Shown here one piece after another: positions 751 to 55,900 of a DNA stretch of 64,000 nucleotides (position 1 is its first letter; each line of letters starts with the position of its first letter). The stretch is taken from the NCBI RefSeq assembly GCF_007753265.1, contig NZ_CP036349.1, forward strand, positions 1,707,363 through 1,771,362, read 5' to 3'. The stretch comes from Botrimarina mediterranea. Its GTDB lineage: Bacteria > Planctomycetota > Planctomycetia > Pirellulales > Lacipirellulaceae. A program made the position numbers and the translations under genes. The notes below the pieces were generated by a model, which saw nothing but the letters and a program-made list of their open reading frames with translations, made no database searches and was not told the origin of the DNA.

Positions 751-3231
751 ATGCTTTCGATAAGTAAGATTGGAGGCGGTGACGCCACGGCCTACTACGC
801 CAACTTGAACGAGCACGAGGGCATTGTTGGTAGCTACTACGACGAAGAGGGGAAGCGCCAAGGCGTCTGGTTTGGAACTGGGGCGGCAGAACTAGGGCTC
901 GGTGGTGCTGTGGACGGAGAGACCTTCAAGAGCCTTCTGGAAGGGAAGTCACCGGACGGCAGGACGGTTCTGGTGCAGCAGCGAAATGGAGAGCAGCTAA
1001 AGCGTCGAGCCGGATTTGATCTGACGTTTTCGGTCCCCAAGAGCTTCTCCGTTCTCTACTCGCAAGTTTCCGATGAACGTCGTGCCGAACTCGACCACAT
1101 CGCCGAACGGGCTCTCTACCGAACACTCGACTTGGTCCAAGCCGAATGCGGCAGAACCCGCCGCGGCAAGAATGGCGTCATCGCCCAAGATGCGAAACTT
1201 ATCGGGGCTATGTTCAAGCATGATACGGCTCGCGGTATCCCTGGCGAACTGCCTGACTGCAACGTTCACTACCACTGCGTGCTCGCAAACTTAGTCGTTA
1301 GAGAAGACGGAACGCACGGAGCGCTCGACGCACGAACGCTCTTTGAGCGGAGGAAGAAGATAGCTCTTGGCGCGATGTTTCGAGCGGAACTCACAGCACT
1401 TTTAAGGAGCGACCTTGGCATCGAGACGCATCGGCCAAGAAAGCCGGGACGAGACGAGAAGGTCTCGTGGTTTGAGGTCACGGGTGTTCCAGAAACGCTG
1501 ATGACGGCGATGAGCAAGCGTCGGGCTGCAATCGAGAGGTGGCTCAATGAACACGGTCTCTCTGGAGCTAAGGCAAGCGAGCGGGCAAACCTCGGAACGC
1601 GAGCGAAGAAGAGCACCTTCCCGTGGAAGACGCTGAGCGACGCTTGGCTAAGGCTCGGCCGAGAATTCGGCTGGTCTCGGAGCGAGGCCGATGAACTCAT
1701 CGGGACGCCGTTCGATGTCGGAGGCACGACCAAGACGACCGGGCAGTTAGCCAAGCAATCGCTTGCCATGCTGATGAGTAGCCGAGCACGTTTTACGCGG
1801 AACGAGCTGATGGAGCGAGCTGCGATTGAGGCACAGACAACAGGGCTTGGAATCGACGATGTGCTAGTAGCCGTTGACCAAACGCTTGCCAGCACCAAGG
1901 AAGTGGTGAGGCTGCAGGACAAGGAGGGCCAACCGACCTTTACGACAAGAGAGATGCTGCGGTTAGAGAAAGGGGCTCTGGCTCGTGCAACGAGTCTCAG
2001 CAAGAAGAGTAATCACGCAGTAGAGCTTGGTGATGTTGCGAGAGTCATCCTTCGCTACGAGACCATCCGGATAGACCAGGCGGAAGCCGTAAGGGCCATC
2101 TGCGTCGGTGGTGACTGCGTCTCCGTCACCGGTGTTGCCGGGAGTGGTAAGACCTTCGTGCTAGGTGTCGCCCGCGAAGTGCTCGAAGGCGGAGGCTTCG
2201 AACTCATAGGTACGGCCCTCGCAGCAGACGCTGCCAAAGAGCTTGAGAAGGGATCCGGAATTCAGTCAACGCACCTGCACAAACTGCTCTACGACCTGAA
2301 CGAAAAGAACCGAGAGCTGTCCGCGAGCACGGTCGTCGTTCTCGACGAAGCGGGTATGGTTGGCACCAGGCAGATGGCAGACCTTTTGGAACGCATCCAT
2401 CAAGCCGGAGCCAAGGTTGTGATGGTGGGAGACCCCTTGCAGATCCAGCCTGTCGACTCGGGAGCCCCGTTTAGAAAGGTAAGTGAAGAGATAGGAACAG
2501 CTGAGCTTGTTGAGATTATCAGGCAGCGAGAAGGGTACGCGAGGCAAGTCGTAAGAGACCTTCGTGCGGGTAGAGCACAGGAGGCGTTGGCAGAGCTTGC
2601 TAAGCGTGGCCAGGTCACCATTGCAGAAGAGTCGGAGCTTGCACGAGACCAACTCGTCAAAGACTGGGAAGACATTGTGTTCAAGAAGAAGGTGCCAGCT
2701 AGCGATATTGCCGTTCTTTGCGGCATGAACGAGGACGTGCGAGACCTTAACCGAAGACTTCAAGCGGTGATGAGAGAACGAGGGGAGCTTGGAGATTACC
2801 GGCTTGAGCTTGACGGCTTGGAGTTCTGTCTCGGTGACCGAGTTGCGATTACCAGGAACGACCGGATGCTGGGTGTGCGTAATGGAGAGCGTGGTGAAGT
2901 CGTCGGAGTAAGGGGTAAGACGCTTTGGGTCAAGTTTGAGAAGTCGGGGTTTGAGATCGAGATCGACACCGACGATTTCGCACACGTTACGCTCGACTAC
3001 GCCAAGAGCATCCATCGCAGCCAAGGAGAAACGGTCGAGCACACGCTCTTTCTTGCGGGCGATGTGATGACCGACCTACATACGAGTTACGTGGCAGGAA
3101 GCCGAGCACGAGACAAGACCTTTATCTACTCACACGTGTCGGCCGTGGAATCGGTTGAAGGGCTTGCTGCGATGATGAGCCAGTCACGGCAAAACGAGAT
3201 GGCAACAGAGTACGAATTAGGGAGGGTGTGA
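751..3231 (+). CDS. MobF-family relaxase with C-terminal helicase (TrwC/TraA type)
   Basis: The protein (826 residues) should nick DNA at oriT, bind covalently to the 5' end and unwind the strand for transfer. The N-terminal relaxase domain has the tandem tyrosines Y15-Y16 and a metal-binding histidine set (H157, and the HYH at 173-175). The second half is a superfamily I helicase with Walker A GVAGSGKT (about 461-468) and Walker B LDEAG (about 531-535), followed by UvrD-like motifs ending in KSIHRSQGETV. This is the MobF domain order, although 826 residues is shorter than F-plasmid TraI. It overlaps the start of the coupling protein, as expected of one transfer operon. It appears intact. Confidence 0.92.
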   Translation: MLSISKIGGGDATAYYANLNEHEGIVGSYYDEEGKRQGVWFGTGAAELGLGGAVDGETFKSLLEGKSPDGRTVLVQQRNGEQLKRRAGFDLTFSVPKSFSVLYSQVSDERRAELDHIAERALYRTLDLVQAECGRTRRGKNGVIAQDAKLIGAMFKHDTARGIPGELPDCNVHYHCVLANLVVREDGTHGALDARTLFERRKKIALGAMFRAELTALLRSDLGIETHRPRKPGRDEKVSWFEVTGVPETLMTAMSKRRAAIERWLNEHGLSGAKASERANLGTRAKKSTFPWKTLSDAWLRLGREFGWSRSEADELIGTPFDVGGTTKTTGQLAKQSLAMLMSSRARFTRNELMERAAIEAQTTGLGIDDVLVAVDQTLASTKEVVRLQDKEGQPTFTTREMLRLEKGALARATSLSKKSNHAVELGDVARVILRYETIRIDQAEAVRAICVGGDCVSVTGVAGSGKTFVLGVAREVLEGGGFELIGTALAADAAKELEKGSGIQSTHLHKLLYDLNEKNRELSASTVVVLDEAGMVGTRQMADLLERIHQAGAKVVMVGDPLQIQPVDSGAPFRKVSEEIGTAELVEIIRQREGYARQVVRDLRAGRAQEALAELAKRGQVTIAEESELARDQLVKDWEDIVFKKKVPASDIAVLCGMNEDVRDLNRRLQAVMRERGELGDYRLELDGLEFCLGDRVAITRNDRMLGVRNGERGEVVGVRGKTLWVKFEKSGFEIEIDTDDFAHVTLDYAKSIHRSQGETVEHTLFLAGDVMTDLHTSYVAGSRARDKTFIYSHVSAVESVEGLAAMMSQSRQNEMATEYELGRV

Positions 3232-4856
3232 TGGAGTTGCTAGTCGGGCTAGGCATCTTGGGCGTGGGAGCGGGAGTACTTGTAGTTAGGCCGCTTGCTA
3301 GAAGTCACCGCATCAAGAGCTACACCCGCGGCCGCGAACTCCGTAGCAAGCGGGCGACTAAGAAGGTCTCTGGAGACGCCGCGACAGGACTTCGCTTTGG
3401 CAACGCCTTCCTTCCAGCGAGCGCAGCGACCCAGCACACGCTAGTAGTCGGCACGACAGGTTCTGGTAAGAGCCAGGTGCAGCGACTGTTCATGAGAGAG
3501 CCACTCCTGCGGATCCAAGTAGGCAGTGACCACCGAGCCCTCATCTACGACGCCAAGGGCGAGACGTGCGCGTATCTCCGAAGGATCGGAGTAACGGCAC
3601 AGGTCTACTCGCTTAACCCGTTTGAGAAGCGGAGCAACGAGATTTGTAAGGCAGTCGCCTGGGATATCGCGAGAGACATCACTTCACCTGCGAGGTCGCT
3701 CAACCTTGCAGCCGCTTTCATCAAGCAAGAGCACGGCGGGGCAAACGGCTACTTCACCGACGCGGCACGGCTCGTTCTTGACGGCATCATCACGAGCTTT
3801 ATCAAGCACTCCGGGCGCGCCTGGACGCTGTCGGACTTGGTGAACGCTACAAGCACGCGGACTCGGATGGAGCAAGTGCTCGGCCGAGACGAGCACGGCA
3901 AGGCGGTCATCGAGAGTCTTCTAGGTGACGACCGAACCGGTTACGCCGTGGCAAGCACGGTGGCTAGCAAGATGCGCTACTTCTCACCAGTAGCCGCCAT
4001 GTGGCAAAGGTGCGAACACAAGATAAGCTTGGCCGAATGGTGTTCTAGCAACTCGATATTGTTATTCGGAGACAACGAGACGGCCACCGCAACACTCGAT
4101 GCGTTGAACGCCGTGATGTTCGCGGTGGTGGCCGAAGAGATCGACAAGCAAGGACAGTCGGACACGAGACGCACGTGGCTATGGCTAGACGAAGTGCGGC
4201 TTGCTGGCGGCATACTCAATAGCGGGATGCTGCCGCGACTTGCCGTGAAGGGAAGGTCGAGAGGATGTTGTCTCGTGTTGGCGTTTCAAGACATTGAGGG
4301 ATTCCGACTTGCCGCTGGAAAAGAGAACGCCGACGAAATAGTTGCCCAGTGCTCGAACATCGCCCTTCTTAGGATGAGTGGAGAAGGGGGACAGTTCGCG
4401 TCAAAGCTCGTTGGGCAGTATGAGACCATTGAGGTTCATCACTCGGACTCAACAAGGCTTCTGGGAGCCGAGACCCGGAGCGAGCAACGAGTTACTAAGG
4501 ACACAATGCTTCCGTCAGAGTTCTATGGCTTCCCACAGACCAACCCGGAAAACGGTCTGCAGGGTCTCTTCATCTCAACCGAACGGGGCGCCGAGCTTGT
4601 GCGGATCGCACCCGAGTGCATTCAGCAAGTCGTTGTGACGACCGAGCAAGAACAACGCGACGCGGTCGTGGTGAGACCGAACGCCGACCAGTGGCTGCGA
4701 GGGTGGAACCCCAAGGACTACAAGCGACTCGGTATCGAGCGAGCGGTCCAAGAAGGCGTGCAAGAGCCTGTGCCGACGTCCAAGAAGCTTAAGCTGAGGC
4801 TCCGGACGCCGGATGGGCTTGAAGAGGTGACACTGCCCAAGGCGGTAGGATTGTGA
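3231..4856 (+). CDS. type IV coupling protein (TraD/TrwB/VirD4-like ATPase)
   Basis: This is a hexameric ATPase that links the relaxosome to a type IV secretion channel. A hydrophobic segment near residues 1-25 is the likely membrane anchor. Walker A is GTTGSGKS (about 74-81), and the Walker B region is TWLWLDEVRL (about 315-324), followed by KGRSRG and LAFQDIEG, typical of TraD_N/TraM-recognition ATPases. The ATG at 3231 shares one base with the relaxase stop; a GTG at 3228 is an alternative. A decayed copy of the region around the Walker B motif lies at 10079-10234. No other secretion-channel genes were seen in the window, so the module may be mobilisable rather than self-transferring. Confidence 0.9.
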   Translation: MELLVGLGILGVGAGVLVVRPLARSHRIKSYTRGRELRSKRATKKVSGDAATGLRFGNAFLPASAATQHTLVVGTTGSGKSQVQRLFMREPLLRIQVGSDHRALIYDAKGETCAYLRRIGVTAQVYSLNPFEKRSNEICKAVAWDIARDITSPARSLNLAAAFIKQEHGGANGYFTDAARLVLDGIITSFIKHSGRAWTLSDLVNATSTRTRMEQVLGRDEHGKAVIESLLGDDRTGYAVASTVASKMRYFSPVAAMWQRCEHKISLAEWCSSNSILLFGDNETATATLDALNAVMFAVVAEEIDKQGQSDTRRTWLWLDEVRLAGGILNSGMLPRLAVKGRSRGCCLVLAFQDIEGFRLAAGKENADEIVAQCSNIALLRMSGEGGQFASKLVGQYETIEVHHSDSTRLLGAETRSEQRVTKDTMLPSEFYGFPQTNPENGLQGLFISTERGAELVRIAPECIQQVVVTTEQEQRDAVVVRPNADQWLRGWNPKDYKRLGIERAVQEGVQEPVPTSKKLKLRLRTPDGLEEVTLPKAVGL

Positions 4857-5352: not shown

Positions 5353-6429
5353 ATGGTGGTCGGCATTTTTCTTTTTGCCTTTCAACGAAAGCCGGCAGAC
5401 ATGACTGCTTCAATTCACTGCGGATGGTGCACACACTTCTGTAGCTTGGCGGCGGCTGCCGTCCTCTGTCTGGGCGTTCCGCACGAGTCCGCGGGTGAGC
5501 CAGCGGCAGCTCAGCGTCTCCCTGCTTACGACCCCCTTCCGTTCGGACTTCCTGCCACGACGTCCGTCTCAGCGGAGAACCTCAAAGGCTTCTATATCCC
5601 GTGCTTTGAGAACCGGGTTGTCGGGCACATATCGTTCCGACTGGATTCCTTCAAAGAGAATCTGATGAGGATTGCGGTCTTTGACCGCTCCGACGTTGAA
5701 GGTTTCGATCTTTTGGTGACGCATGGCAATAAGAACTTCCCATCGCCGATCAAGATACCCTACGGTTGGCGGTGCAGCGTCCACAAAGTAGGGGAGTCGT
5801 TTTTCGCCGATGCTTATACCTGGGAGGGTGACAAGCAGAGCCATTACTTGTTCCGGCTGCTTTCCTCCAACAAGGTGCCATTCAAGAATCTTCTTCTTGT
5901 GCCGCTGTCCAAACAGTCGCGAAGCGACTACGGGAGTATCGCTGGTGCGGACGACCTCCTGAAATACGCTGCCGCCAATCAAGGACAATCATCACTCGCC
6001 ACCGAGGGGCAAATCTGGTTCGCCGAGAGCAACGCCGCTGCCCTCTCGTTCTTCGGCAACACGGTTACCGATGGCAAGGCGGCCTACGATCAGCTTGAAC
6101 GCCGTTTTCCCGATCCGCATCGTTTGGCCCGACTTCGTCGACTGCATCCCGGCCAAGTCAATCCGGTGACACGCGACATCGTCGGGTATCGCAACCCCAA
6201 TCGAGGTGAGCGTAGTGACATCGATCCCGTCGTCGTTTACTTTGGAGCGATCGTCGCCGCGGCAATTGCCGCCCCGGCCATCGAGGCTTTGCTCAGCGAT
6301 GGACAGCAGCAGCCAGCAGCCGTCACTCCTCCGAGCTATGAACCTAAAACTTGCCCCCACTGCTTCATGGGTCGTCGCTTCTACGACCAAGCGCTCTGTC
6401 CCTACTGCGGCGGCACGGGAAGGCAGTAG
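5353..6429 (+). CDS. hypothetical secreted protein with C-terminal zinc-ribbon motif
   Basis: The family is not recognised. The N-terminus has a hydrophobic stretch (SLAAAAVLCLGVP) followed by a likely signal-peptidase site near AGEPAAA. The ATG at 5353 is chosen because GGAGGG lies just upstream; an ATG at 5401 would give a more usual signal-peptide length. A second hydrophobic stretch (VVYFGAIVAAAIAAPAIEALL) lies near the C-terminus, followed by CPHCFMGRRF and CPYCGGTGRQ, two CxxC pairs of the DnaJ zinc-finger kind. The protein may therefore be anchored with its zinc motif exposed on one side. It is isolated from its neighbours by about 230 bases upstream. Confidence 0.6.
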   Translation: MVVGIFLFAFQRKPADMTASIHCGWCTHFCSLAAAAVLCLGVPHESAGEPAAAQRLPAYDPLPFGLPATTSVSAENLKGFYIPCFENRVVGHISFRLDSFKENLMRIAVFDRSDVEGFDLLVTHGNKNFPSPIKIPYGWRCSVHKVGESFFADAYTWEGDKQSHYLFRLLSSNKVPFKNLLLVPLSKQSRSDYGSIAGADDLLKYAAANQGQSSLATEGQIWFAESNAAALSFFGNTVTDGKAAYDQLERRFPDPHRLARLRRLHPGQVNPVTRDIVGYRNPNRGERSDIDPVVVYFGAIVAAAIAAPAIEALLSDGQQQPAAVTPPSYEPKTCPHCFMGRRFYDQALCPYCGGTGRQ

Positions 6430-6541: not shown

Positions 6542-7330
6542 TCACCGGTCGCCCCTCTCGATAGAAACCAACCGAGTTCTCACACCGGTTTGCCGGAAGG
6601 CCTCGGCGGTTTCAAACGCCCCCTCGGGAAGTGCGTGGGTTTCAGCTCCAACTTCATCGAGCCAGGCACGAAACGCTTCGGACTTCTAATCACTTCTACT
6701 GAACGCACCTTCGCCCATTACCGAAACGAGTTTGCCGCCAGGCTTGAGTAGCGTATAGGCGTGCCGCATGTGGTCGATGTCGGAGTTCTCGCCACGCTCA
6801 AAGGGCGGGTTCATCACGATCCGGTCGTACTCCCCTTGGTGCTCCAAGAAGTCACCGAAGTAGACGGCGTAGCCCTTGGCGTCTAGCACCGGCTTTAGCG
6901 TCCGGTTCATCTCGATGGCGGTGACATCGAGTTCGGGGAGCTGCTCGTAGAGAGAGTCAACAATCGAGCCCATGCCGCACGACGGCTCGAGCACCTGGTG
7001 GTCTGCTTGGATGTCTGCAAGGTCCAGCATCTGGTCGATGACTGAAAGCGGAGTAGGAAAGAAGCCAGGAAGCTTCTTGCCGATGAGATCTCGCTCGGCT
7101 GCCTTTACCGGAGAGTCCTACTGTTGCCTTGCTCGGTACGGCAAGAACTCTCTGAGGGCTGCTAGAAGCTCTGGTAGCGTGTGGATGTTCGCTCGCTGAA
7201 GGCGTTGGTAGCGCAAGGATATCTTTGGTCTCTGTGACTACCGCCTGGTCGGCTACGAAGAGCGTTTGAAGGTTTCGGGAGTTTCTGTGATGGCGGCGTC
7301 GAAGTCGAACTGTTTCTGTACCGCGTTCAT
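6542..7330 (-). pseudogene. decayed class I SAM-dependent methyltransferase
   Basis: Reading the minus strand from the ATG at 7330, one frame gives MNAVQKQFDFDAAITETPE and then stop codons, followed in the same frame by LPELLAALREFLPYRARQQ, another stop (TAG), KKLPGFFPTPLSVIDQML, and a recognisable methyltransferase core with EPSCGMGSIVD (motif I) and DRIVMNPPF (catalytic motif). A further in-frame TAG follows GAFSRSD, after which the frame continues as KSEAFRAWLDEVGAE to a normal end at 6542. The gene is thus full-length but broken by several nonsense changes and no obvious frameshift. The intact middle piece (6686-7030) is probably not a functional protein. Genes of this type are common on plasmids and phages. 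Confidence 0.8.
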
Positions 7331-7424: not shown

Positions 7425-7491
7425 CCCGTCCTTCGTCGATCGCCATCGGCCTCACCTTCAGCGGGGCCGGTGGTGAGCGATGAAGGACGGG
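7425..7491. repeat. imperfect 27-bp inverted repeat
   Basis: The arm at 7425-7451, starting CCCGTCCTTCGTCG, is complementary to 7465-7491, ending CGATGAAGGACGGG, with about five mismatches and a 13-base spacer. It lies in the 390-base gap between the broken methyltransferase and the gene at 7720. It could be a terminator for either side or a remnant of a mobile element end. No gene is seen in the remainder of the gap. Confidence 0.5.
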
Positions 7492-8769: not shown

Positions 8770-8819
8770 GGCGTGCAGCGGGCCAATGCCTTCGTAAGAA
8801 CCTCCGTGGGTTGAATCAA
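8770..8819. repeat. 50-bp segment duplicated at 17082-17132
   Basis: The sequence beginning GGCGTGCAGCGGG and containing GCCTTCGTAAGAACCTCC is repeated at 17082-17132 at roughly 80% identity. It abuts the 3' end of the intact ArdC gene here, and lies near an ArdC 3' fragment in the second location, so the two regions are descended from one longer duplicated segment. Confidence 0.7.
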
Positions 8820-9646
8820 GCGGAAAGCGGTTCCGGTTCGAGCTGCTGGGCTTCGATGCCGGTGAGAATCTGCGAGGCCGCCTGCTGGATGCGTCCGAGC
8901 GAAGCGGTGAGCTGCTCGGGGTCTCCCTGGTGGCACTGGATGTAGTCTTTCGACTGCTTGAGGGCCCCTGAGAGCCCCGCAGCGTGCGAGACGACGTAGG
9001 CCACCGATTCGGCTTCGAGTTCCTTAACGGTCTTTGAGAGCGTCTTGCGGTCCTCGGCCTTATGCATCAGCTCGTGGGCCAGCTCGTGGGCGAGGGTGTT
9101 GTACGCCTCGGCCTGGTTGAGCCCGCTGAGCAAGTAGATGCGGCCCCCCATCGAGACCCCGTCGGCCCCGTCGAGGTGCTCTTCGTAGCCCAGCTCGATG
9201 CCGAGCGACGACACGTATTGAACGAGTCTTTCGAGGTGGTCTCCCGGCTCCCCGCTGAGGCGGTTGATGTCGGGGAGCTCGTCCCCTTCGGTCTGGGCCA
9301 GGTCGAAGACGTGAACGGCCCGGTAACCAAGGACCCCCTTGGTCTCGTTGCCTTCTTCGTCCTCTTTCTTGCCGACCATTGGGGCGAGGATGCAGATGCC
9401 CTTCTCGCCCTTTTTGACGGAGCGTCCGAGCTTCTTCCACGCCTGGAACCCGGCCACCCGCGTCGCGGTCGGCCTCTGCCGGGCGATGAGCAGGCAGTTG
9501 CCGAACGAGTAGTGGTGGAAGCGGCTCATGGTGTTGAGGTACCTGGTGAGTTCCTCGCTCTTGCCCGCCGCGAGGGCGGCCGCGAGTTCGGATAACGCCG
9601 AGTCGCAGAGCGACTTCGCCTCTTCCTTCTTCATGCGAATCTCCAT
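8816..9646 (-). CDS. ArdC-like antirestriction protein with metallopeptidase motif
   Basis: The protein is 276 residues from the ATG at 9646 (a second ATG at 9634 is also possible). The N-terminal ArdC domain has LTRYLNTMSRFHHYSFGN and LIARQRPTATRVAGFQAW, the single-stranded DNA-binding part of this family. The C-terminal part contains the zinc-metallopeptidase motif HELAHELMH (about 187-195). ArdC proteins of conjugative plasmids protect incoming DNA from host restriction. A degraded piece of a second copy lies at 17408-17560. The DNA is more GC-rich than its neighbours, which suggests a separate origin. It lies between two 43-bp direct repeats. Confidence 0.85.
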   Translation of the reverse strand: MEIRMKKEEAKSLCDSALSELAAALAAGKSEELTRYLNTMSRFHHYSFGNCLLIARQRPTATRVAGFQAWKKLGRSVKKGEKGICILAPMVGKKEDEEGNETKGVLGYRAVHVFDLAQTEGDELPDINRLSGEPGDHLERLVQYVSSLGIELGYEEHLDGADGVSMGGRIYLLSGLNQAEAYNTLAHELAHELMHKAEDRKTLSKTVKELEAESVAYVVSHAAGLSGALKQSKDYIQCHQGDPEQLTASLGRIQQAASQILTGIEAQQLEPEPLSA

Positions 9647-13730: not shown

Positions 13731-13916
13731 TCAGTAGATTTGGGAATCTTCGCCGCAGCCGGGACATTGCATCCGGCGTTGCTGCTCGACGTAGGCGGCG
13801 TAGAGCTTAGCTTGCTGCTGTTCGTGTTCGATGGCCGAGTGATCGGATTGGTCTGAGGCGCTGCCTTCGGGGCTATTGGTTGTTTGACTCAATGCATCGT
13901 TTGCTGACATTGACAT
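13731..13916 (-). CDS. small CxxC protein with hairpin leader, copy A
   Basis: This 61-residue protein starts at the ATG at 13916. The N-terminal half is polar and low in complexity. The second half (HSAIEHEQQQAKLYAAYVEQ, QRRMQCPGCGEDSQIY) has a helix followed by a single CxxC knuckle, suggesting a metal-binding or dimeric zinc site. A homologue at 30202-30387 keeps EH.(Q/R)QQA(K/R)LY.AY(V/I)EQQRRM.CP.CGE. The ribosome-binding site is inside the 3' arm of a 28-bp hairpin immediately upstream. The function is unknown. Conservation of the protein and hairpin in two places argues that it is a real gene. Confidence 0.7.
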   Translation of the reverse strand: MSMSANDALSQTTNSPEGSASDQSDHSAIEHEQQQAKLYAAYVEQQRRMQCPGCGEDSQIY

Positions 13917-13921
13917 CGTAA

Positions 13922-13988
13922 GACTCCCCTTGGTGTTGGTGACCCCCCCTCGCAAGAACTGGGGGGGTCACCAACACCAAGGGGAGTC
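13922..13988 (-). promoter_or_regulatory. 28-bp perfect hairpin sequestering the ribosome-binding site, copy A
   Basis: On the minus strand the 5' arm (13988 to 13961) and the 3' arm (13949 to 13922) form a perfect 28-bp stem with an 11-base loop containing TTCTTGCGA. The 3' arm ends in AAGGGGAGTC, 5 bases before the ATG at 13916, so the Shine-Dalgarno sequence is locked in the stem. Copy B at 30393-30460 has the same stem length with compensated base changes. A translational switch, RNase III substrate or mobile-cassette end are all possible. It could also stop read-through from the opposite strand. Confidence 0.8.
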
Positions 13989-14370
13989 GAGTCAGAAAGG
14001 CCATCAAACATGAAGTCGAAAGCAGCAAGACCATTGGAGTCATAGTCCGGGATCGCTACGTCGGCTTGCATCAGCTTGGAGCGCTCGCCCGAACACTTTT
14101 CTCTGGCTGTAGGGCAAGTGGAACAGCTCGCTGATCGTCGGCAGCGTCTCGGTCGACCAGCGAATCGTTGTCATTAAGCTAGTTCGTCACCCGGTAGGCG
14201 AGCCTCGTTGGCTTGCCTGCGGCCTGCGTCATCGTTCGTTCCGTCCGTTCGAGAAGAATGGAGTGTCAGGCTGCTCTATTGCGTTCATGGTGCGTTCATT
14301 GCTTGCGCGGTCTCGTCAGGCATAATCACTCCTTTCCCCATGCACCACCAACCACCTAGGAACCGTCTCC
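13989..14370. other. 382-base gap without a gene
   Basis: No protein-coding region or RNA gene can be supported between hairpin A and the PEP-CTERM gene at 14371. The last 60 bases presumably carry the promoter of that gene; AACCACCTAGGAACC precedes its start without an obvious Shine-Dalgarno sequence. Confidence 0.5.
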
Positions 14371-16485
14371 ATGAATACCGCAGCGCTTTCCTCTTCTAGG
14401 GACTTGCTAGCAAAGGGTGTTATTGCCCTCTGCTCAATAGTTGGGTCGAGCGCATGCGCGCAGTCAACGCTTGATCTTGGGCTCGCCGATTATGCCGAGC
14501 TTGGAAATATCGGTTTGAGAGCGTTGCCGGTTCTTGCTGAGCTGGACCTGACGGGCTTAGGTATCCAGGCGACAATCGACTGGAACAACACACTCGCCCC
14601 GGTCACGGATGGATTGTTGGGGCAGGCTATCGAGAGCACAGTTACTGTCGATAGATTTACGGATGCGATTATGCCATGGTTGACTTTCACGGCGTCCGAC
14701 CAAGTTGGCAGCTCGACTTCGCCGTTCGGGTTGTTGAACCTAACGGGAATAGAAACGGGCCTCTCATCTTTCGACACGCAGATAATCGCATTGGAGGCAG
14801 GGCTGTCAGACTCAATTCCAGAACCAGACAGCGAGTGGTATCTGGCGGGAGCAACGAGCCTTGCGGCCCGGAGTCAAATGGAGACCGTCAGGGCGGACGC
14901 CGTCACCCGGCTCGAAGAGCTAGGAATGTCGGCGGCTAATGTGACGGAAGTACAAAGCAAGTTGTCGCTATTTGCTGACCGACTGATGGCCGGAAGTAAT
15001 ATCTCTTACGACGTTGCTGGCTACATCGCCACACTGCCCGGCGCGTATGCTGTGCAAGACACCGTCGTAAACTTGGTTGCGACCTCTGGCGACCTCGCGG
15101 GGCTTCGGGCCGGTCAACTCGCGACAACACGTGGGCGAGTGGACGCGCTGACGCCTTTGATCAGCACCAGACAGGCGGAGTTGGGGACTCTCGTTGAGAG
15201 CATTGACTACGTTCTTGCGAGCGGTATGCTCGGCTCCGAATGGAGAACGTCTGTGGAACCCGCCTCGCTCACCGGCGGTGTGTTCGCGATTAGGGGAAGT
15301 GAGCTAAGCTTCTCGGAAGCCGCCACAGAGATAGTCGGGCCTTTTTCGCTGGGAAGCGTTCAGTTCGACAATCTTGTCTTCCCATGCCCTGAAGTAGGGG
15401 CGTGCAGCTTTGTCACGCCCGGAAGCTTTGCCGGGGTAGCAACAAGGACGGTAGACGACCCTACGCTAGGCGAGCAAACGACCATCGGGGTCGCACAAGC
15501 GAACTTCTACTACATCACTATCGAGAACGTCGAAGGCAACCCAGTTGCGTCGCAAGACTTTGTGGCGATTCCGTCGTTGGGAAAGTACGCATGGGTGCCC
15601 GAAGAATTGACTGTGAGTTTTGACGTGCTTGCGAGCTACAATTCACCGCTCAGGATCTCGGGACTTGCTTCTTCGGACGGGCAAGCGGGTGCAGTAGTCG
15701 ACGCACCCACTCTAAGCGATGTCAGTGCTATGCAAGACGGAGACGTCGTGCCTGGAATAGGGACCGGAAAGGTGCAGGTGGTTTCGTTGGTCGACACTAT
15801 AGCGAGCCCCACGGAAAAGTCATTCCAGCTGCAAGACGAGACAGGCGGCATCACCGTCTTTGGTAGCAACAGCTTTATCGATGGCCTTCTAGTGGGAATC
15901 GAAGTCGGCGACTATGTAATCCCCGTTGGCTTTCAGAAAGCAAAGTTCAATGGGCTAGCAGAGATTGTCGACGGGGGGGGCTCTGGTTTCGGAACGTCGC
16001 TTCTGCCGACGGGTGAGTCGGGCGGAGTGTCCGCAAGAATGGTCGGCGCTAGTGATCTACAAGACTACAGCGAGCAAGCAGAGAGGCTCGAAAGCACTGT
16101 CGTTCAACTCGGAAGCGTTAGGTTCTTAGAAGAAGGTGTGTTTGCCGCAGGGACGAACTACGTGGTCACCGACGGCATCGCTGAGGCGACTGTCAGGATA
16201 AGTACGGCAGACATAGACCTTGTAGGCACTCGTATTCCCATCGGAGAGATCAGCCTCACGGGCGTACTAAGCCAGTTTGACTCAAGCAACCCAGCTGGCG
16301 GTACCGCTGGCCGAGGGTACCAGCTGCTGCTCCGAAACCTTTCTGATGTCGGTGTCGCAGTGCCTGAACCAACAGCAGCGAGCCTAATAGCCCTACTATT
16401 CTTTGTTGGCATGTTCGGATTCCGGAACCACACATTTGTTCATAGCGAACGCCTGGTTGCCGGTGACGCGATGGCCGCGCGCTAA
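14371..16485 (+). CDS. large PEP-CTERM secreted protein with an OB-fold-like region
   Basis: The protein is 704 residues. Its signal peptide covers about residues 1-31 (GVIALCSIVGSSACAQ). The region from about 450 to 540 (VPGIGTGKVQVVSLVDTIAS, KSFQLQDETGGITVFG, LLVGIEVGDYVIPVGFQ) looks like the OB-fold domain found in secreted nuclease-associated proteins. The C-terminus has VPEPTAASLIALLFFVGMFGF, a PEP motif plus hydrophobic helix, but is followed by about 25 extra residues rather than the usual short basic end. Ordinary sorting may therefore be impaired, or a stop was lost. Its last 90 bases overlap a possible gene on the other strand. Confidence 0.75.
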   Translation: MNTAALSSSRDLLAKGVIALCSIVGSSACAQSTLDLGLADYAELGNIGLRALPVLAELDLTGLGIQATIDWNNTLAPVTDGLLGQAIESTVTVDRFTDAIMPWLTFTASDQVGSSTSPFGLLNLTGIETGLSSFDTQIIALEAGLSDSIPEPDSEWYLAGATSLAARSQMETVRADAVTRLEELGMSAANVTEVQSKLSLFADRLMAGSNISYDVAGYIATLPGAYAVQDTVVNLVATSGDLAGLRAGQLATTRGRVDALTPLISTRQAELGTLVESIDYVLASGMLGSEWRTSVEPASLTGGVFAIRGSELSFSEAATEIVGPFSLGSVQFDNLVFPCPEVGACSFVTPGSFAGVATRTVDDPTLGEQTTIGVAQANFYYITIENVEGNPVASQDFVAIPSLGKYAWVPEELTVSFDVLASYNSPLRISGLASSDGQAGAVVDAPTLSDVSAMQDGDVVPGIGTGKVQVVSLVDTIASPTEKSFQLQDETGGITVFGSNSFIDGLLVGIEVGDYVIPVGFQKAKFNGLAEIVDGGGSGFGTSLLPTGESGGVSARMVGASDLQDYSEQAERLESTVVQLGSVRFLEEGVFAAGTNYVVTDGIAEATVRISTADIDLVGTRIPIGEISLTGVLSQFDSSNPAGGTAGRGYQLLLRNLSDVGVAVPEPTAASLIALLFFVGMFGFRNHTFVHSERLVAGDAMAAR

Positions 16486-27516: not shown

Positions 27517-28665
27517 CTAGTGCCCCTCAATCGCCTTCTCAAACTCATCCTCGGACGGCTCGACATACCGCCAGATGTGGCGGTCAGAGATGTGGTTGGA
27601 GCGCTTTTTCGCGAACTCGATGCCCTTCTCGCGGGTGAGTTTGCGGAGAGTGTGGTGCCGGAGGACGTGGGGGCTTACGTCAATCTTCTCTCCCTCGGGG
27701 AGGTTCCGGTTGGCCATCGCCGCAATCGCCTTGAGGGCGTCGGCGTACTTTTGGAGGGTGAGCCGCTTGCCGGTCTTGCTCTGGAAGAGGGGGCCTGGTT
27801 CTTCGCCCCGCTCCTCGGTGAGGTAGTCCGAAAGGGCCTCGGCGGCGTCCTTTCCGAGCGGGACCCGCTCGACAATCAGGTTCCCTTTGCAGCGGACATT
27901 CACGAGGGCCGAGCCGTCGAACTGGGCCAGGTCGAGCCCGAGGATTTCTGAGGGGCGGAGGGCCGAGTTGAGCCCGACGTAGAGCAGGGCGTGGTTGCGG
28001 TAGGGGCGTTGATTGGCCCGGGTGTTGGTCTTCATCAGTTGCAGCGAAGCGTTCCGGAGCCGCCCCTCGGCGAGCTCCGGGAGCCCCCGCCAGGCGGGCC
28101 GCCGCTTGGGGGTCGTGTCCTTGACCTTCGCCATCGGGAACCCGGCGAGGAACGGCCGCTGGTGGGCAATCCACTTGGCCGCCGTCCGGAGCGTGGCGAG
28201 CACCCGGTCAATCGTCGTGGGAGCGAGCGGCTTGCCGCTCCTGGCGCCGGTGGTTTCGGTGAGCCGCTTCAAAAAGCTCTTCGAGGTGGCGACCGTCCAT
28301 TGGTCGGGGTCGTCGTCGCCGGTGAACTCAGTAAAGAAGGCGATAAAACGTTCGAGGTCGGCCCGCTTGGCCTTGAAGGTGTTGGTGGCCTCCTCGCCAT
28401 TTGCGGGGGCCCCGACTTCGAGAGTGAGGTAGAGGGAGAACCAGGCGGCGAGCGAGTTGCGGCGGCTGGTCGGGATGAGCTTTTCGGCCGAGGCGGTGAC
28501 GAGCACGAGCTTCCCCTCCTTGGGTGACGGGCTGACGGACGGCCGCGAGGCCTTCTTGGGGGCGACCGACTTGGTCGACGGCTTCTTGTTGCCGGGGGCC
28601 TTAGGGACCACGACCTGGGCGGTTACGGGATGCACGGGGGTGACTCGCCGCTTCTTCGCCATCAC
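27517..28665 (-). CDS. tyrosine recombinase/integrase
   Basis: This 382-residue site-specific recombinase has a basic, Lys/Pro-rich N-terminal extension (~1-55), a SAM-like core-binding domain (~70-175) and a catalytic domain. Catalytic residues seen are R237 (NSALRPSEIL), K260 (VRCKGNL), H333 and R336 (SPHVLRHHTL), H358 (RSNHISDRH) and the nucleophile Y367 (IWRYVEPSE). Its two ATG codons (28665 and 28662) overlap the stop of the upstream 96-residue gene. Integrases with this arrangement move integrative elements, and a cluster of 10-bp repeats lies 320 bases upstream. Its DNA is GC-rich relative to its neighbours. Confidence 0.9.
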   Translation of the reverse strand: MMAKKRRVTPVHPVTAQVVVPKAPGNKKPSTKSVAPKKASRPSVSPSPKEGKLVLVTASAEKLIPTSRRNSLAAWFSLYLTLEVGAPANGEEATNTFKAKRADLERFIAFFTEFTGDDDPDQWTVATSKSFLKRLTETTGARSGKPLAPTTIDRVLATLRTAAKWIAHQRPFLAGFPMAKVKDTTPKRRPAWRGLPELAEGRLRNASLQLMKTNTRANQRPYRNHALLYVGLNSALRPSEILGLDLAQFDGSALVNVRCKGNLIVERVPLGKDAAEALSDYLTEERGEEPGPLFQSKTGKRLTLQKYADALKAIAAMANRNLPEGEKIDVSPHVLRHHTLRKLTREKGIEFAKKRSNHISDRHIWRYVEPSEDEFEKAIEGH

Positions 28666-29236: not shown

Positions 29237-30265
29237 ATGATTAACCGCCGCACGATTCTGTCAGTGGTACTTCAGTTGCTAGCCGTGCAATTTCTCACTG
29301 CTTCTTCCAGCGCACGTGCTGAGACAGTCGCTTTCTGGTCATTCAACGATATCGGAAATGCCACCGTCTCCGAGGTGGCCGCTGACATTGGTCAGGGAGT
29401 GGGAACCACGATAGGGGGCGTATCTGGGCGGGCAGCTGAGGGAACGGGGTACGACGATGTAGTAGCTGGTTTGGCGTGGGAGTTGACTGACTTCCCAAGC
29501 CAGGGTACCGCGGAGGAGACAGCTGGGGTGGAGCTTCGAGTTCCGACGCTCGGATACTCGAATATTGTGATACGACTCGACCACTTCATTGGCGCCGGAA
29601 GTGCTCTCGAATCGCTACTTCAGGTGACATATGACGGCATTAACTACACCGGTATTCGTCAGTTCGGTAGTGACTTCATAGACCCCTATCAGCAGGAGGA
29701 ATGGGGAGACCCCTTATCTATGTCCTATAGTTTTGGCACGTCGAATCAGAATGCCGCGTCAAACAACCCAAATTTCGGTTTCCGGTTCGTGTCCGACTTT
29801 TACCCCTCTTTTAATTCGACCTTCTACCGCTCCTTTGGCGGGGCCTACAGCCCTGATGCTGCGTGGAGAATCGACAATATTCTTGTGACGGGTGACTTGT
29901 TGTTTCGCCCCGGTGACTTCAACGGAGATGGGCTCGTTGATGCGGCGGACTACACGGTGTGGCGTGATGCGGTCGGAACGGCGAACCCGTCCCTAGCCGA
30001 TGCAAATCGCGACGGGCAAGTTAATGCGTCCGACTATGAAGTGTGGGCGTCAAACTACGGCAGCAGTTCCAGCGGCGTTACGTCTACTGTGTTGCAGAGC
30101 GTACCTGAGCCAACCACTGCGGTTCTGCTAGCCCTCGGTACGCTCGCTGCCGTCGGTTGCCGCAACGTGCGAGAGCTTGGCGAATACGTTGGGACATGCT
30201 CTCAGAATAATTGCGGCGATTCGCCGCAGCTTGGGCAGTGCATCCGGCGTTGCTGCTCGATGTAA
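29237..30265 (+). CDS. PEP-CTERM protein with a dockerin-like pair
   Basis: This 342-residue exported protein has a signal peptide (~1-30, ILSVVLQLLAVQFLTASSSARA), a beta-rich middle, and a dockerin type I repeat (FRPGDFNGDGLVDAADYTVW, DANRDGQVNASDYEVWASNYG) with two calcium-binding DxNxDGxV loops. It then has VPEPTTAVLLALGTLAAVGC as the sorting signal. After that the protein continues as RNVRELGEYVGTCSQNN...CCSM instead of a short basic tail. That tail is encoded antisense to the small CxxC gene at 30202-30387, so the original 3' end was probably replaced when that element arrived. Confidence 0.85.
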   Translation: MINRRTILSVVLQLLAVQFLTASSSARAETVAFWSFNDIGNATVSEVAADIGQGVGTTIGGVSGRAAEGTGYDDVVAGLAWELTDFPSQGTAEETAGVELRVPTLGYSNIVIRLDHFIGAGSALESLLQVTYDGINYTGIRQFGSDFIDPYQQEEWGDPLSMSYSFGTSNQNAASNNPNFGFRFVSDFYPSFNSTFYRSFGGAYSPDAAWRIDNILVTGDLLFRPGDFNGDGLVDAADYTVWRDAVGTANPSLADANRDGQVNASDYEVWASNYGSSSSGVTSTVLQSVPEPTTAVLLALGTLAAVGCRNVRELGEYVGTCSQNNCGDSPQLGQCIRRCCSM

Positions 30266-30387
30266 GCCTCGTAGAGCCTGGCCTGCTGACGGTCGTGTTC
30301 GGTCGTTGACTCAGGAGCTTGGCTGGGGGCATTGCCGTGGGGGCAGGTGGATTGGTGATTCGGCTCGTGGTTCGTTTGCGTGATCAT
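30202..30387 (-). CDS. small CxxC protein with hairpin leader, copy B
   Basis: This 61-residue homologue of the 13731 protein starts at the ATG at 30387. Shared segments are the helix and knuckle TEHDRQQARLYEAYIEQQRR and MHCPSCGESPQLF. The N-terminal half (QTNHEPNHQSTCPHGNAPSQ) is unlike copy A except for its polarity. An upstream hairpin with the ribosome-binding site in its 3' arm is present as in copy A. The 3' 64 bases overlap the PEP-CTERM gene tail to tail. Confidence 0.7.
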   Translation of the reverse strand: MITQTNHEPNHQSTCPHGNAPSQAPESTTEHDRQQARLYEAYIEQQRRMHCPSCGESPQLF

Positions 30388-30392
30388 CTTGA

Positions 30393-30460
30393 GATTCCCC
30401 TTGATGGTGGTGGTTGCCCCTCGCAAGAATTGGGGGCAACCACCACCATCAAGGGAAATC
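30393..30460 (-). promoter_or_regulatory. 28-bp hairpin sequestering the ribosome-binding site, copy B
   Basis: The 5' arm (30460 to 30433) and 3' arm (30420 to 30393) pair over 28 positions with one G-U wobble. The 12-base loop contains TTCTTGCGA, as in copy A. The 3' arm ends AAGGGGAATC, 5 bases before the ATG at 30387. Relative to copy A, seven stem positions differ with both partners changed. This compensation supports selection for the stem, although a DNA palindrome would show the same pattern. Confidence 0.8.
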
Positions 30461-30701
30461 GTTTCCGAGACATCCGCTCGAATACGGCGGCTCCGAACCT
30501 TCACCCTAAACAAACGAGGGCGCCGCCCAGAGGCTACCGTGGTGCTGTCCGTCTGCCCAGGTTTCTTGGAGCAGGATCGTGCTACAAGCTGGTAGGCTAC
30601 TCTTTACGTTCGCGTGAGCGGTTCCCTCGCTTGCCGCAGAGCTCTTAGTCCACCTAGCCTCGTGTAGCTCTCGTAGCTTCCGGCATACCAAGTCGTGATC
30701 C

Positions 30702-33810: not shown

Positions 33811-34170
33811 ATGTTGGATTTTGCCGAGATCCAGATCGAGGGTCGCCTGGTCTCGCCGCTGGTGGTGAAACAAACCACCATTGGCGAAGTCGGCGAAGGG
33901 ACCGTCGTCGCGAATAGCGCCGTTCGCGGCGGAGAGGGTTGGATCGACCAACCGATGTTTATCGACTTCGCCGCGTTCGGCGTCACGATTTCTCCGGCCC
34001 TTCGCGATGCCGCTAAGGGTGACCGAGTCCGTCTCGAAGGTTTCCTCCGCTTTGAGCGTTGGGAGCAAGACGGCCAGAAACGCTCGAAGCACAAAGTTAT
34101 CGCTCGCACGGTTCGCGTCGAGCCCAAGGTCGAGAATACGCATGCCACGAAGGCCGTCGCCAGCAAGTAG
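33811..34170 (+). CDS. SSB-like single-stranded DNA-binding protein
   Basis: This 119-residue protein has the OB-fold pattern of single-stranded DNA-binding proteins: IEGRLVSPLVVKQTTIGEVG, VIDFAAFG-like PMFIDFAAFGVTISPAL, then GDRVRLEGFLRFERWEQDGQ and KVIARTVRVEP. It lacks the long acidic tail of cellular SSB. It is preceded by GGAGATAAG. A role in replication or transfer of the element is expected from the fold and neighbours. Confidence 0.7.
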   Translation: MLDFAEIQIEGRLVSPLVVKQTTIGEVGEGTVVANSAVRGGEGWIDQPMFIDFAAFGVTISPALRDAAKGDRVRLEGFLRFERWEQDGQKRSKHKVIARTVRVEPKVENTHATKAVASK

Positions 34171-49332: not shown

Positions 49333-50730
49333 CTAGGCAGCACCCGCTTGGGGTGCGCCGTTAATCGTACGCCGCCAGTGCTCCAACAACGCCGTGTCGA
49401 GGTAGACCTGAAAATGCCTGTTCGTGCGGGCGTTCTCCGCCGCAAGCAGCTTCCCATGAACGCGAGAGCATCGGATCGCCTCCGCTTGGAAGTCTTTGCG
49501 GGCGACCTCTGAGAGACCCGTCCAGAACTCAGCGAAGGCCGCTTTGGCGCTCGCCTTCCGGTCAATCGTTTGCTTCAACAAGCTTTGCTTTCTAGCGAGG
49601 CTCTTCTGTTCCCCCTCCCTCGTCGCCTCCGCTTCTTGCCGAAGGCATTCGGGCGACTTATAGCCTTCACGGAAGTCGTAGCCGTCTTTGCTGAGGATGT
49701 CTCCAGCAAGCCACCGGTGACTAATTTTCTCGCCGTGACACAGCCGGTCGTCAAAGTTCAGGATGGCGCGCTCGATTCGCGATCGATTCCGCTGCCTTCG
49801 CAAAAGAAGCGAAGCATCCGTGCAGCCACGTTCTTGCAGCTGCTTGAGGAGCAGCGAATCCCTGACCGCTGCCTTCTTGCCCGTCTCAGTCCGGAGGTCG
49901 GTGTAGACAACTTCCCATCCGCTTTGTCCCCGGTCGATGTAGTTGGCTCGACAAAAGCCCTTTCTTTCTAGCTCGTGGTGAGCCGGTTCCAGCGACTCCT
50001 TTATCTGTCCGGTGTGGTGCTTCCTGCTCACGCCGACCTTCTCAAAGGCGAGCTGCTTTAGTTCAAACGGCACCTCGCTTCTCGCGTAGAACTTCTTGCC
50101 AAGAAACCGGAAGAGCCTCCTTGAGATCGGGTTCTCCAGGCCTCGCCAGAAATCGACATCGAGGCCGCGGACATAACCCGCTTCGATAGACTCCCAAACA
50201 AAATCGCTCCACACGAAGAACGCTGTCTTGGTCTCGGCGTCCGGCATTGCGTTCTTGCCGACCACCTGCCAACGGTCGAGGATCCCAACGACATCCCGCA
50301 CCCGTTGCCGCTTGCCTTTGCTCCAGAACGCTTCCTTGGAGATGATGGTGACGCTCGCCCAACGGTCGAGGCTCTTTGTCAGTCGGCGGTAGTTCCTGGT
50401 GCTCCGCTCCCAGCCGATCTGCTCCAAGAAGGCGTACGGCGTAAAGCACACCCGGCGGCTTGGGGATGAGGCTTGGTGGGTCAGCTCTTCAAGGCCAATC
50501 AGCACCTCCTCGTCGTATGAGGTGGGCAAACCCAAGAGGTCGGACCCGGTGACGGTCAGCTCCCTCGGTACCCGCTCTGCGGTTTCAGGGTCGGTGATCT
50601 CATCGCGGAAGGTGAGCGTCTTAACTCCCCGAGGGGGCCGCTTCCCCATCACGGTCAGCGGGAATTCGGCGAGGTTCATCTCGTCAGGGACCCGCCTGGT
50701 GCGTTTGGCTGTACTCTCTTCTCTCTCCAT
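49333..50730 (-). CDS. RepA-like plasmid replication initiator
   Basis: The protein is 465 residues from the ATG at 50730, which follows TTTGGAGGAGA. The N-terminal part (residues ~10-300) has the pattern of the RPA/replication initiator protein A family: SYDEEVLIGLEELTHQAS, RRVCFTPYAFLEQIGWE, YRRLTKSLDRWASVTII, and SRRLFRFLGKKFYARSEVPF. The C-terminal ~130 residues are Lys/Arg-rich and helical. Six iterons lie about 110 bases upstream on the same side, as in iteron-controlled plasmids. It would bind the iterons and load the replication helicase. Confidence 0.85.
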   Translation of the reverse strand: MEREESTAKRTRRVPDEMNLAEFPLTVMGKRPPRGVKTLTFRDEITDPETAERVPRELTVTGSDLLGLPTSYDEEVLIGLEELTHQASSPSRRVCFTPYAFLEQIGWERSTRNYRRLTKSLDRWASVTIISKEAFWSKGKRQRVRDVVGILDRWQVVGKNAMPDAETKTAFFVWSDFVWESIEAGYVRGLDVDFWRGLENPISRRLFRFLGKKFYARSEVPFELKQLAFEKVGVSRKHHTGQIKESLEPAHHELERKGFCRANYIDRGQSGWEVVYTDLRTETGKKAAVRDSLLLKQLQERGCTDASLLLRRQRNRSRIERAILNFDDRLCHGEKISHRWLAGDILSKDGYDFREGYKSPECLRQEAEATREGEQKSLARKQSLLKQTIDRKASAKAAFAEFWTGLSEVARKDFQAEAIRCSRVHGKLLAAENARTNRHFQVYLDTALLEHWRRTINGAPQAGAA

Positions 50731-51532: not shown

Positions 51533-52300
51533 ATGATCGTATCATTTGCAAATTCAAAAGGGGGCGTTCTCAAGACGACGTTGGCTGTTCACCTAGCAGA
51601 CTGGTTCAGACTTCATGGCTGCTCGGTCGTGCTGTTTGACTGTGACGCTCAACGCCTCTCTTCCAGGTGGCTCAAGGTAGCGAGGCCGGAAATGCGAGTG
51701 CTTACCCCGCAAACGCCAGAAGAGATCGTCAAACAGGTCAGCGAAGCCTCGGTCAGCCACGACGCGGTAGTCGTTGACGCTCCAGGAGGTCTTAGCGAAA
51801 TTACCGGGGCGATCCTCCAGGTCACCGACGCCGCCCTCATCCCGACAGGGGCCAGTCAGCTGGACATTATGGCCCTCGATTGGACGACGGAGACGATCCA
51901 CGAGATCCAGAAGCTGAGGGACGGCCTGCCACAGACCGCAATCATCCCGACCCGAGTGGGGAGGGGGAGAAAGACCACCGAGAGTCTTCGGCAGCACGCA
52001 AGCTCGATGCGGTTTGGGATCACCAAAAGTACGATTCCCTACCGCGAGGTCATCGTCCAATCAGCGGGGCTACGCTCGCCCGGCAACGACGGTTGGAAGA
52101 TACCACCGAGCCTTGTCTGGGACCTTGGCCGGAGGAAGCAGGTCAGAGAACCGGCTCTTGAGATCGACGCCGTTTTTCGCGAGGTGTTTGCCGCGGCTTG
52201 CCAAGAGAACCCGCGTCTCATCCTAGAACGAGTAACACCAAGAACTAAACTAAAGCAGACAGCAGAAAAGGAGGGGCATGCCGCAGGATCCAGAACTTAA
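51533..52300 (+). CDS. parA: ParA-family partition ATPase with altered Walker A
   Basis: This 255-residue P-loop ATPase of the ParA/MinD family begins MIVSFANSKGGVLKTTLAVH. The deviant Walker A, usually KGGVGKT, here reads KGGVLKTT (K9-T16), with leucine replacing the glycine before K14. The signature Lys (K9) and K14 are kept. Walker A' VVLFDCDAQRLSSRW and Walker B VVVDAPGG are present. It lies next to the iteron origin and is followed by an overlapping partner gene, as in type I plasmid partition systems. The start at 51533 fits the family; upstream in-frame codons are not needed. Confidence 0.85.
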   Translation: MIVSFANSKGGVLKTTLAVHLADWFRLHGCSVVLFDCDAQRLSSRWLKVARPEMRVLTPQTPEEIVKQVSEASVSHDAVVVDAPGGLSEITGAILQVTDAALIPTGASQLDIMALDWTTETIHEIQKLRDGLPQTAIIPTRVGRGRKTTESLRQHASSMRFGITKSTIPYREVIVQSAGLRSPGNDGWKIPPSLVWDLGRRKQVREPALEIDAVFREVFAAACQENPRLILERVTPRTKLKQTAEKEGHAAGSRT

Positions 52301-55813: not shown

Positions 55814-55900
55814 TGTGGGAGGGGTCTCCAGACCCCGATTACGGTATCCATTCCGAAACGGCGTGGTGCGCGTAACCAGGGTCTGGAGACCCCTCCCACA
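55814..55900. repeat. 22-bp perfect inverted repeat between bshB1 and carboxypeptidase genes
   Basis: The arm starting TGTGGGAGGGGTCTCC (55814-55835) is exactly complementary to 55879-55900, with a 43-base spacer. It lies between two divergent genes, so it is not needed as a terminator. It looks like a dispersed palindromic repeat. Confidence 0.75.

Follow-up and report, generated by a model that had tools for sequence, protein, structure and literature searches.

The window analysed here, a stretch of 64,000 nt of the Botrimarina mediterranea genome (NZ_CP036349.1; window positions are used as coordinates below), carries on its minus strand two genes for a small CxxC protein with a CPxCGE knuckle near its end, each standing behind a long hairpin (Table 1). 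In copy 1 (protein P0002) all 28 of the 28 stem positions are paired around a loop of 11 nt, and the stem of copy 2 (P0003) consists of 27 Watson-Crick pairs and one G-U pair on the sense strand, with a loop of 12 nt. Both folds are very stable, with energies of -69.9 and -59.1 kcal/mol and folding z of -10.9 and -9.6 for copies 1 and 2, respectively; none of 200 shuffles was equally stable. The two proteins are 46% identical. Compared by eye, the stems differ by seven double changes, in which both partners of the pair are replaced, and by one C-G pair turned into U-G; TTCTTGCGA is present in both loops. This motif has five matches on the two strands of the window against 0.85 expected, two of them being the loops. 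The original prediction had described two 61-codon CPxCGE genes behind 28-bp stems, with the Shine-Dalgarno sequence in the 3' arm, 5 bases ahead of the start codon; its coordinates, pairs and loops are confirmed, GGGGAG and GGGGAA are present in the arms, and our recount of the double changes, the G-U pair and the common loop motif agrees with it. It also knew of no named riboswitch or leader of this form, and Rfam 15 at the gathering score indeed gives no match in the window.

Table 1. Hairpins, small CxxC genes and mobile-element genes of the window
Feature	Positions	Strand	Remarks
TrwC-type relaxase with helicase domain	751..3231	plus	
TrwB-type coupling protein	3231..4856	plus	
Methyltransferase-domain ORF (MTS, PF05175)	6686..7030	minus	
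Third hairpin, decayed	7425..7491	minus	Watson-Crick pairs at 23 of 27 positions; loop CCGCTGAAGGTGA
ArdC-type antirestriction protein	8816..9646	minus	
Small CxxC gene, copy 1 (P0002)	13731..13916	minus	61 codons; homologues found
Copy 1 hairpin, 3' arm	13922..13949	minus	contains GGGGAG; ends 5 nt before ATG
Copy 1 loop, AGTTCTTGCGA	13950..13960	minus	
Copy 1 hairpin, 5' arm (sense strand)	13961..13988	minus	
Tyrosine integrase	27517..28662	minus	
Small CxxC gene, copy 2 (P0003)	30202..30387	minus	61 codons
Copy 2 hairpin, 3' arm	30393..30420	minus	contains GGGGAA; ends 5 nt before ATG
Copy 2 loop, CAATTCTTGCGA	30421..30432	minus	
Copy 2 hairpin, 5' arm (sense strand)	30433..30460	minus	
Replication initiator protein A (RPA)	49333..50730	minus	
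ParA-like ATPase	51692..52300	plus	Pfam scores below cut-off

The flanks of the two copies cannot be aligned, which is uninformative because the proteins themselves are only 46% identical. No T-run lies beside either copy on either strand, and an intrinsic terminator fits less well than an RNA leader on this ground; terminator scans at both copies, allowing loops of 3-8 only, found none. The 3' end of copy 2 (30202-30387) is overlapped by 64 bp on the other strand by the tail of a plus-strand ORF (29237-30265), whose end we take to be PEP-CTERM-like.

The first ~55 kb of the window are lower in GC and carry genes of mobile-element type. Their GC content, taken in 2-kb steps, is 0.55-0.62, against 0.62-0.67 in 19 of 20 samples of the same genome, and they encode a ResIII helicase with a DNA methylase in addition to the genes of Table 1. 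The low GC content together with the TrwC relaxase, TrwB, ArdC, integrase and RPA suggests that this part of the window is an integrated mobilizable plasmid. A relaxase search in plasmids (1418 records) gave matches of which the best 40 all have less than 60% identity, with no planctomycete among the matches listed. The decayed hairpin of the same region lies 6 nt before a GTG and has a DNA methyltransferase remnant downstream; no single open frame connects the methyltransferase-domain ORF with it. The small mobile cassette raised originally is weakly supported, in that hairpin and gene do reside in a mobilizable element, and the cassette form itself is putative. In cassettes of the integron attC type the core sites and their recognition by the integrase are at the 3' end of the gene, whereas the present hairpin is 5' of the gene.

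A count of copies per genome, as proposed with the original prediction, gives three CxxC genes in this genome. The third copy (L006) lies at 2.27 Mb; its stem, 28 nt long, shows no sequence relation to those of copies 1 and 2, its loop ends in GGGTGA and its arm is without a Shine-Dalgarno sequence. Beyond this genome the CxxC protein has a patchy distribution, being present in 11 of 43 genomes of the same family and in 23 of 396 sampled genomes of the same order. The conserved C-terminal part of the family reads Y-x-E-Q-Q-R-R-M-x-C-x-x-C-G-E, and some of the larger members have a zinc-ribbon-like N-terminus, at Pfam scores below the cut-offs. No Pfam or NCBIfam family matches the protein at cut-off; copy 1 has a weak match (E 0.0011) to PHROG 19679, whose function is annotated as unknown, and a search of viral contigs found no relative. 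At several loci the neighbours of the CxxC gene are of plasmid type: a ParA-type ATPase, an unnamed small protein to which we give the working name L055-type, a MerR-type helix-turn-helix protein and, just under its cut-off, a DUF932-like protein.

Long palindromes abound in this genome. A background sample of 400 kb (L035-L054), which with the window makes 464 kb with rough gene calls, contains 58 hairpins scoring at least 16, or about one per 8 kb, three of them inside a called gene. Judged by eye, many of these palindromes belong to repeat families (for example TGTGGGAGGCGTCTCCAGACGCCGATTACG and GGCGAGCCGGGAGCGTCAGCGACCGGAG) whose arms change together. Against this background, compensatory changes in a long perfect palindrome are in themselves nothing unusual in this genome. 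The leader hairpins might then be dispersed REP-like palindromes which landed before genes by chance, with template-switching in replication keeping the arms matched without selection. The frequency of the background families is in keeping with this account, as is the fact that 18 of 239 other called genes have a hairpin scoring at least 12, with any loop, in the 130 nt before the start; at this score, with the loop disregarded, the excess before CxxC homologues (6 of 34) is not significant (p 0.096). What the account leaves unexplained is the distinctive point of these hairpins, their position: all three CxxC copies of the genome have the stem near the ATG, ending 5-10 nt before it. The copies are also outside any repeat family. 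Their loop pattern occurs in three places of the 5.87-Mb genome, two exact and one with three mismatches, the latter without a hairpin, and on the plasmids described below TTCTTGCG loops recur on unlike stems. We therefore regard chance placement of REP-like repeats as unlikely. The resemblance to such repeats lies in the perfect palindromes with arms changing together that are common in this genome, and the difference in that the present hairpins are sense-oriented at gene starts, with a conserved loop and mostly unshared stems. At 55814-55900 of the window, 48 nt before the called start of a 504-codon gene at 55948, there is a 30-nt palindrome whose repeat family has other members in the genome.

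The association of hairpin and gene was assessed by a script which examined 130 nt upstream of each start and accepted stems scoring at least 7 with a loop ending in GYGA or TTGYG. The sample comprised 34 distinct CxxC copies with start codons picked by script, including two fragments without a start codon (L021, L026), one with a frame break (L025) and one weak row (L092). The motif hairpin precedes nine of the 34 homologues, compared with 7 of 239 sense control genes of the same genome (Fisher 1.6e-5), and six of 31 when the three copies of that genome are left out (p 0.0014); the antisense control in the same genome gave 5 of 239. In a second control, made up of 62 genes at related loci with the L055-type genes kept, there were four sense and one antisense positives, and three of the four sense positives are L055-type leaders. 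A 6-bp stem (L078) falls under the script threshold and is outside the nine. The GYGA/TTGYG motif was derived partly from sequences that were counted afterwards, and therefore the plasmid pK2D_1, fetched afterwards, is the fairer test. Across the class the hairpins are sense-oriented and lie 5 to 108 nt before the start, with stems of 6 to 28 bp and loops of 11-27 nt; the loop is kept while the stem drifts. One of them (G011) is located between two co-directional genes. The fold is thus linked to the CxxC gene beyond chance, as first supposed (three of three copies in the own genome; 9/34 against 7/239). By the comparison proposed together with the original prediction, however, an exclusive link does not hold, as 25 of the 34 homologues are without the motif hairpin by script and other genes have it. 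The CxxC genes of L012 and L014 sit immediately after another gene.

The free plasmid pK2D_1 (L161) was picked because of its L055-type gene. Its hairpin at 33929-33995 led to a 60-codon gene, 46860, which was then shown to be a CxxC homologue; tblastn of P0003 against PLSDB returned no match, although this homologue exists. A second homologue on the plasmid, 46870, has a leader hairpin with the loop GGGTTCTTGCGA and is on the strand opposite to 46860. Both CxxC genes found on pK2D_1 therefore have a sense-oriented leader hairpin. A 233-codon gene of the same plasmid has a different hairpin, of 21 bp with the loop GCGTGGAG (5436-5485), which ends 2 nt before its ATG; relatives of this gene adjoin a CxxC gene elsewhere and have a hairpin near the start in L019, a weaker one in L016 and none near the start in L082.

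The hairpin recurs before genes of other kinds, in several genera and in two classes. In pPSMK1, a conjugative plasmid of Phycisphaera mikurensis, which belongs to the same phylum as the host of the window and to a different class, four genes have a hairpin before them: the L055-type gene, a hypothetical gene and the genes for ArdC and RadC. The loop is CCGTTCTTGCGTA in the L055-type leader and GCTTCTTGCGA in the hypothetical-gene leader, two leaders of the plasmid have TTCTTGCG loops, and the leaders of ArdC, RadC and the hypothetical gene share a common block upstream of the hairpin. In the L055-type leaders of one genus (L055, L100, L150) the hairpin is part of a longer common leader and lies 29-41 nt upstream of the ATG, and a gene of another kind (L069) has the same long leader. 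Nine of 88 L055-type genes pass the script test and 79 do not; we trust six of the nine passing rows, since L157, L177 and L192 look like chance.

These cases bear on the idea, central to the original prediction, that the hairpin is a switch which hides the Shine-Dalgarno sequence of the CxxC gene and of this gene alone; such a switch might be controlled by the CxxC protein itself. GGGGAG, GGGGAA and GAGGAG do lie in the 3' arms of copy 1, copy 2 and pK2D_1 46860. The script, which measured a wrong hairpin in one of the 21 leader rows (L069), places the Shine-Dalgarno sequence in the 3' arm of two leaders, copy 1 and the decayed hairpin of the window; with copy 2, whose GGGGAA is absent from the word list, and pK2D_1 46860, whose stem is longer, the number rises to about four of 21. 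In about 17 of 21 leaders the sequence is outside the stem or was not found, the arm of the third copy is without it, and hairpins of the same class precede ArdC, RadC and L055-type genes. A switch private to the CxxC protein consequently appears improbable.

Conservation of pairing was examined in four leaders with an invariant TTCTTGCGA loop on unlike stems. In their alignment 93.8% of cells are paired and 10 of 12 pairs are changed on both sides; the paired share, the both-side counts and the covariation score were reached by none of 500 shuffles and the number of pair types by one of 500, and in slid registers the pairing drops to 40-56%. The stems thus covary in the test suggested originally. 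Because the four leaders were selected for having hairpins, this result describes freedom of the stem together with identity of the loop and is no independent proof of selection. Mismatches in the stems of the 21 leaders, among which one row is a wrong hairpin, comprise 14 G-U and 12 A-C, a balance that gives no sign of strand-specific RNA selection.

Loops of the TTCTTGCG kind were absent from 838 hairpin-strands of the own-genome sample and from 220 of three other planctomycete plasmids, and were found in three of 333 hairpin-strands of pK2D_1 and pPSMK1, two of these being the pPSMK1 leaders; the hairpin of pK2D_1 46870 scored under the cut used for this count. The reversed 8-mer, as a control, occurred 4, 0 and 1 times in the same sets. 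An unbiased hairpin scan of five plasmids and the island gave 31 GYGA/TTGYG loops against 20 with the reversed motif, a slight excess made up of 12/11 in pPSMK1, 5/3 in pPla86_1, 3/2 in pSINAC03, 1/1 in PALBO2, 6/1 in pK2D_1 and 4/2 in the island.

Wider searches yielded few further leaders. Most of the inspected matches of a first covariance model (R1) in 43 genomes of the family were ordinary GCCCC/GGGGC hairpins, with one more L055-type leader (L150) among them. The pattern TTGCCCCN{4,28}GYGAGGGGCAA matched in five of 146 genomes: two matches are CxxC leaders, one is an L055-type leader and two are intragenic, in what we take to be threonine-synthase-like genes. The search of planctomycetes with a covariance model that had been proposed originally was carried out with the TTCTTGCGA model (R2) on 392 genomes of the phylum. 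It recovered training sequences and gave no sure new case: 54 genomes match at E <=0.5, which is within chance for such E-values, and the sure matches are the two copies of the own genome (G000) and pPSMK1 (G743), all of them training sequences. The match in G669 (E 2.6e-4) is borderline, without an obvious gene start behind it, and the other inspected matches resembled hairpins at gene ends or within coding DNA.

We tentatively favour, at somewhat less than an even chance, the view that the hairpin is a cis-acting, loop-read leader of accessory genes of planctomycete conjugative and mobilizable plasmids, probably acting as RNA; in the present genome it would have become chromosomal by integration. 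What is recognised would be the loop, either of the TTCTTGCGA flavour or a related one ending in GYGA, and we infer that the two flavours represent one element. The stem would need pairing only, leaving its sequence and its length (6 to 28 bp) free to drift. After transcription the hairpin would fold in the 5' leader or the intercistronic part of the message, where a plasmid or host factor might bind the loop and so set translation or stability. Genes under such shared regulation, namely ArdC, RadC, the L055-type gene and the small CxxC gene, could then respond jointly. Where the stem covers the ribosome site, as in copies 1 and 2 and pK2D_1 46860, the ground state would presumably be silent. 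A DNA operator fits less well than an RNA leader because it would be expected to conserve the arms, whereas here the loop is kept and the stem drifts.

The plasmid setting, with ArdC, RadC and methyltransferase genes behind hairpins, also agrees with a role in single-stranded plasmid DNA after transfer, where the hairpins would be promoters or priming sites resembling Frpo and ssi and would let the recipient express establishment genes early. The near equality of G-U and A-C mismatches suits DNA as well as RNA, and the leaders are on one strand each in the window (three) and in pPSMK1 (four). Frpo-like sequences are described upstream of such genes in other plasmids, in the part of the source available to us (PMC11541004). 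On pK2D_1, on the other hand, the leaders are on opposite strands, and conjugation moves one strand. A scan of the unfolded sequence found no sigma-70-like site within 500 nt at either copy (13900-14400 and 30370-30870), a weak test, since chance alone would give about 0.1 and the promoters of planctomycetes may be of another form. Finally, transcription starting at the base of the stem, 5 nt ahead of the ATG, would leave no ribosome site outside the stem. The opposite strands on pK2D_1 and, as a weak test, the lack of promoter boxes would favour the RNA leader over a promoter on the transferred strand, and we consider a role in single-stranded DNA unlikely, slightly more so than chance placement of repeats.

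Control of plasmid genes seems to have been studied mostly in Proteobacteria and Firmicutes. In Frpo/ssi promoters the -35 and -10 elements form in the folded strand, always on the transferred one. From the text at hand, the promoters of F-like plasmids (PMC11541004) resemble the present hairpins in that several of them stand ahead of early genes on one plasmid, and differ in that our hairpins showed no -35/-10-like boxes in the unfolded sequence at copies 1 and 2, have a conserved loop and occur on both strands of pK2D_1. EGeRS of the pLS20 family (PMC8708921) are likewise repeated cis elements before several establishment operons of one plasmid; as far as the consulted portion of their description goes, they are much longer than single-strand promoters, and the present element is set apart from them, by description, as one hairpin of 6-28 bp with a loop of 11-27 nt in Planctomycetota. 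The common upstream block and hairpin before ArdC, RadC and the hypothetical gene of pPSMK1 may be comparable to EGeRS in arrangement. A cis element that recurs before the establishment genes of a plasmid is thus nothing new in kind, at least in the passages seen of both sources (PMC11541004, PMC8708921). Structured 5' leaders of Rfam share with our hairpins a conserved, covarying leader fold, and differ in that the window has no Rfam 15 match.

A literature search combining planctomycetes, conjugative plasmid and ArdC found no paper, and one combining planctomycetes with plasmid, hairpin and RNA motif returned one, a general survey. As far as these and other literature searches and Rfam reach, the hairpin class looks undescribed. 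A broader proposal, which we think rather doubtful, is that Planctomycetota plasmids share an establishment regulon in which a loop-read hairpin of any stem sequence, working otherwise than the Frpo promoters, would switch ArdC, RadC, L055-type and small zinc-knuckle genes together upon entry into a new host. If real, the element would be a marker for accessory and establishment genes of Planctomycetota plasmids and would provide a case for testing how a control hairpin keeps its loop while its stem drifts, and it would put an unnamed family of small CxxC proteins on the map.

Similar hairpins were also seen in viral sequences. Four viral contigs contain a CCCC...TTCTTGCGAGGGG pattern, and two near-identical phage contigs among them (L267 and L268, IMG/VR) have a 95-codon phage ORF with a 10-bp hairpin, AAGCGGCCCC-CGTCTTCTTGCGA-GGGGCCGCTT, 21 nt upstream of its ATG. 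Another IMG/VR contig (L266), with proteins that we take to resemble those of microviruses, bears a TTCTTGCGA hairpin, but its larger ORFs are on the strand that does not carry the motif.
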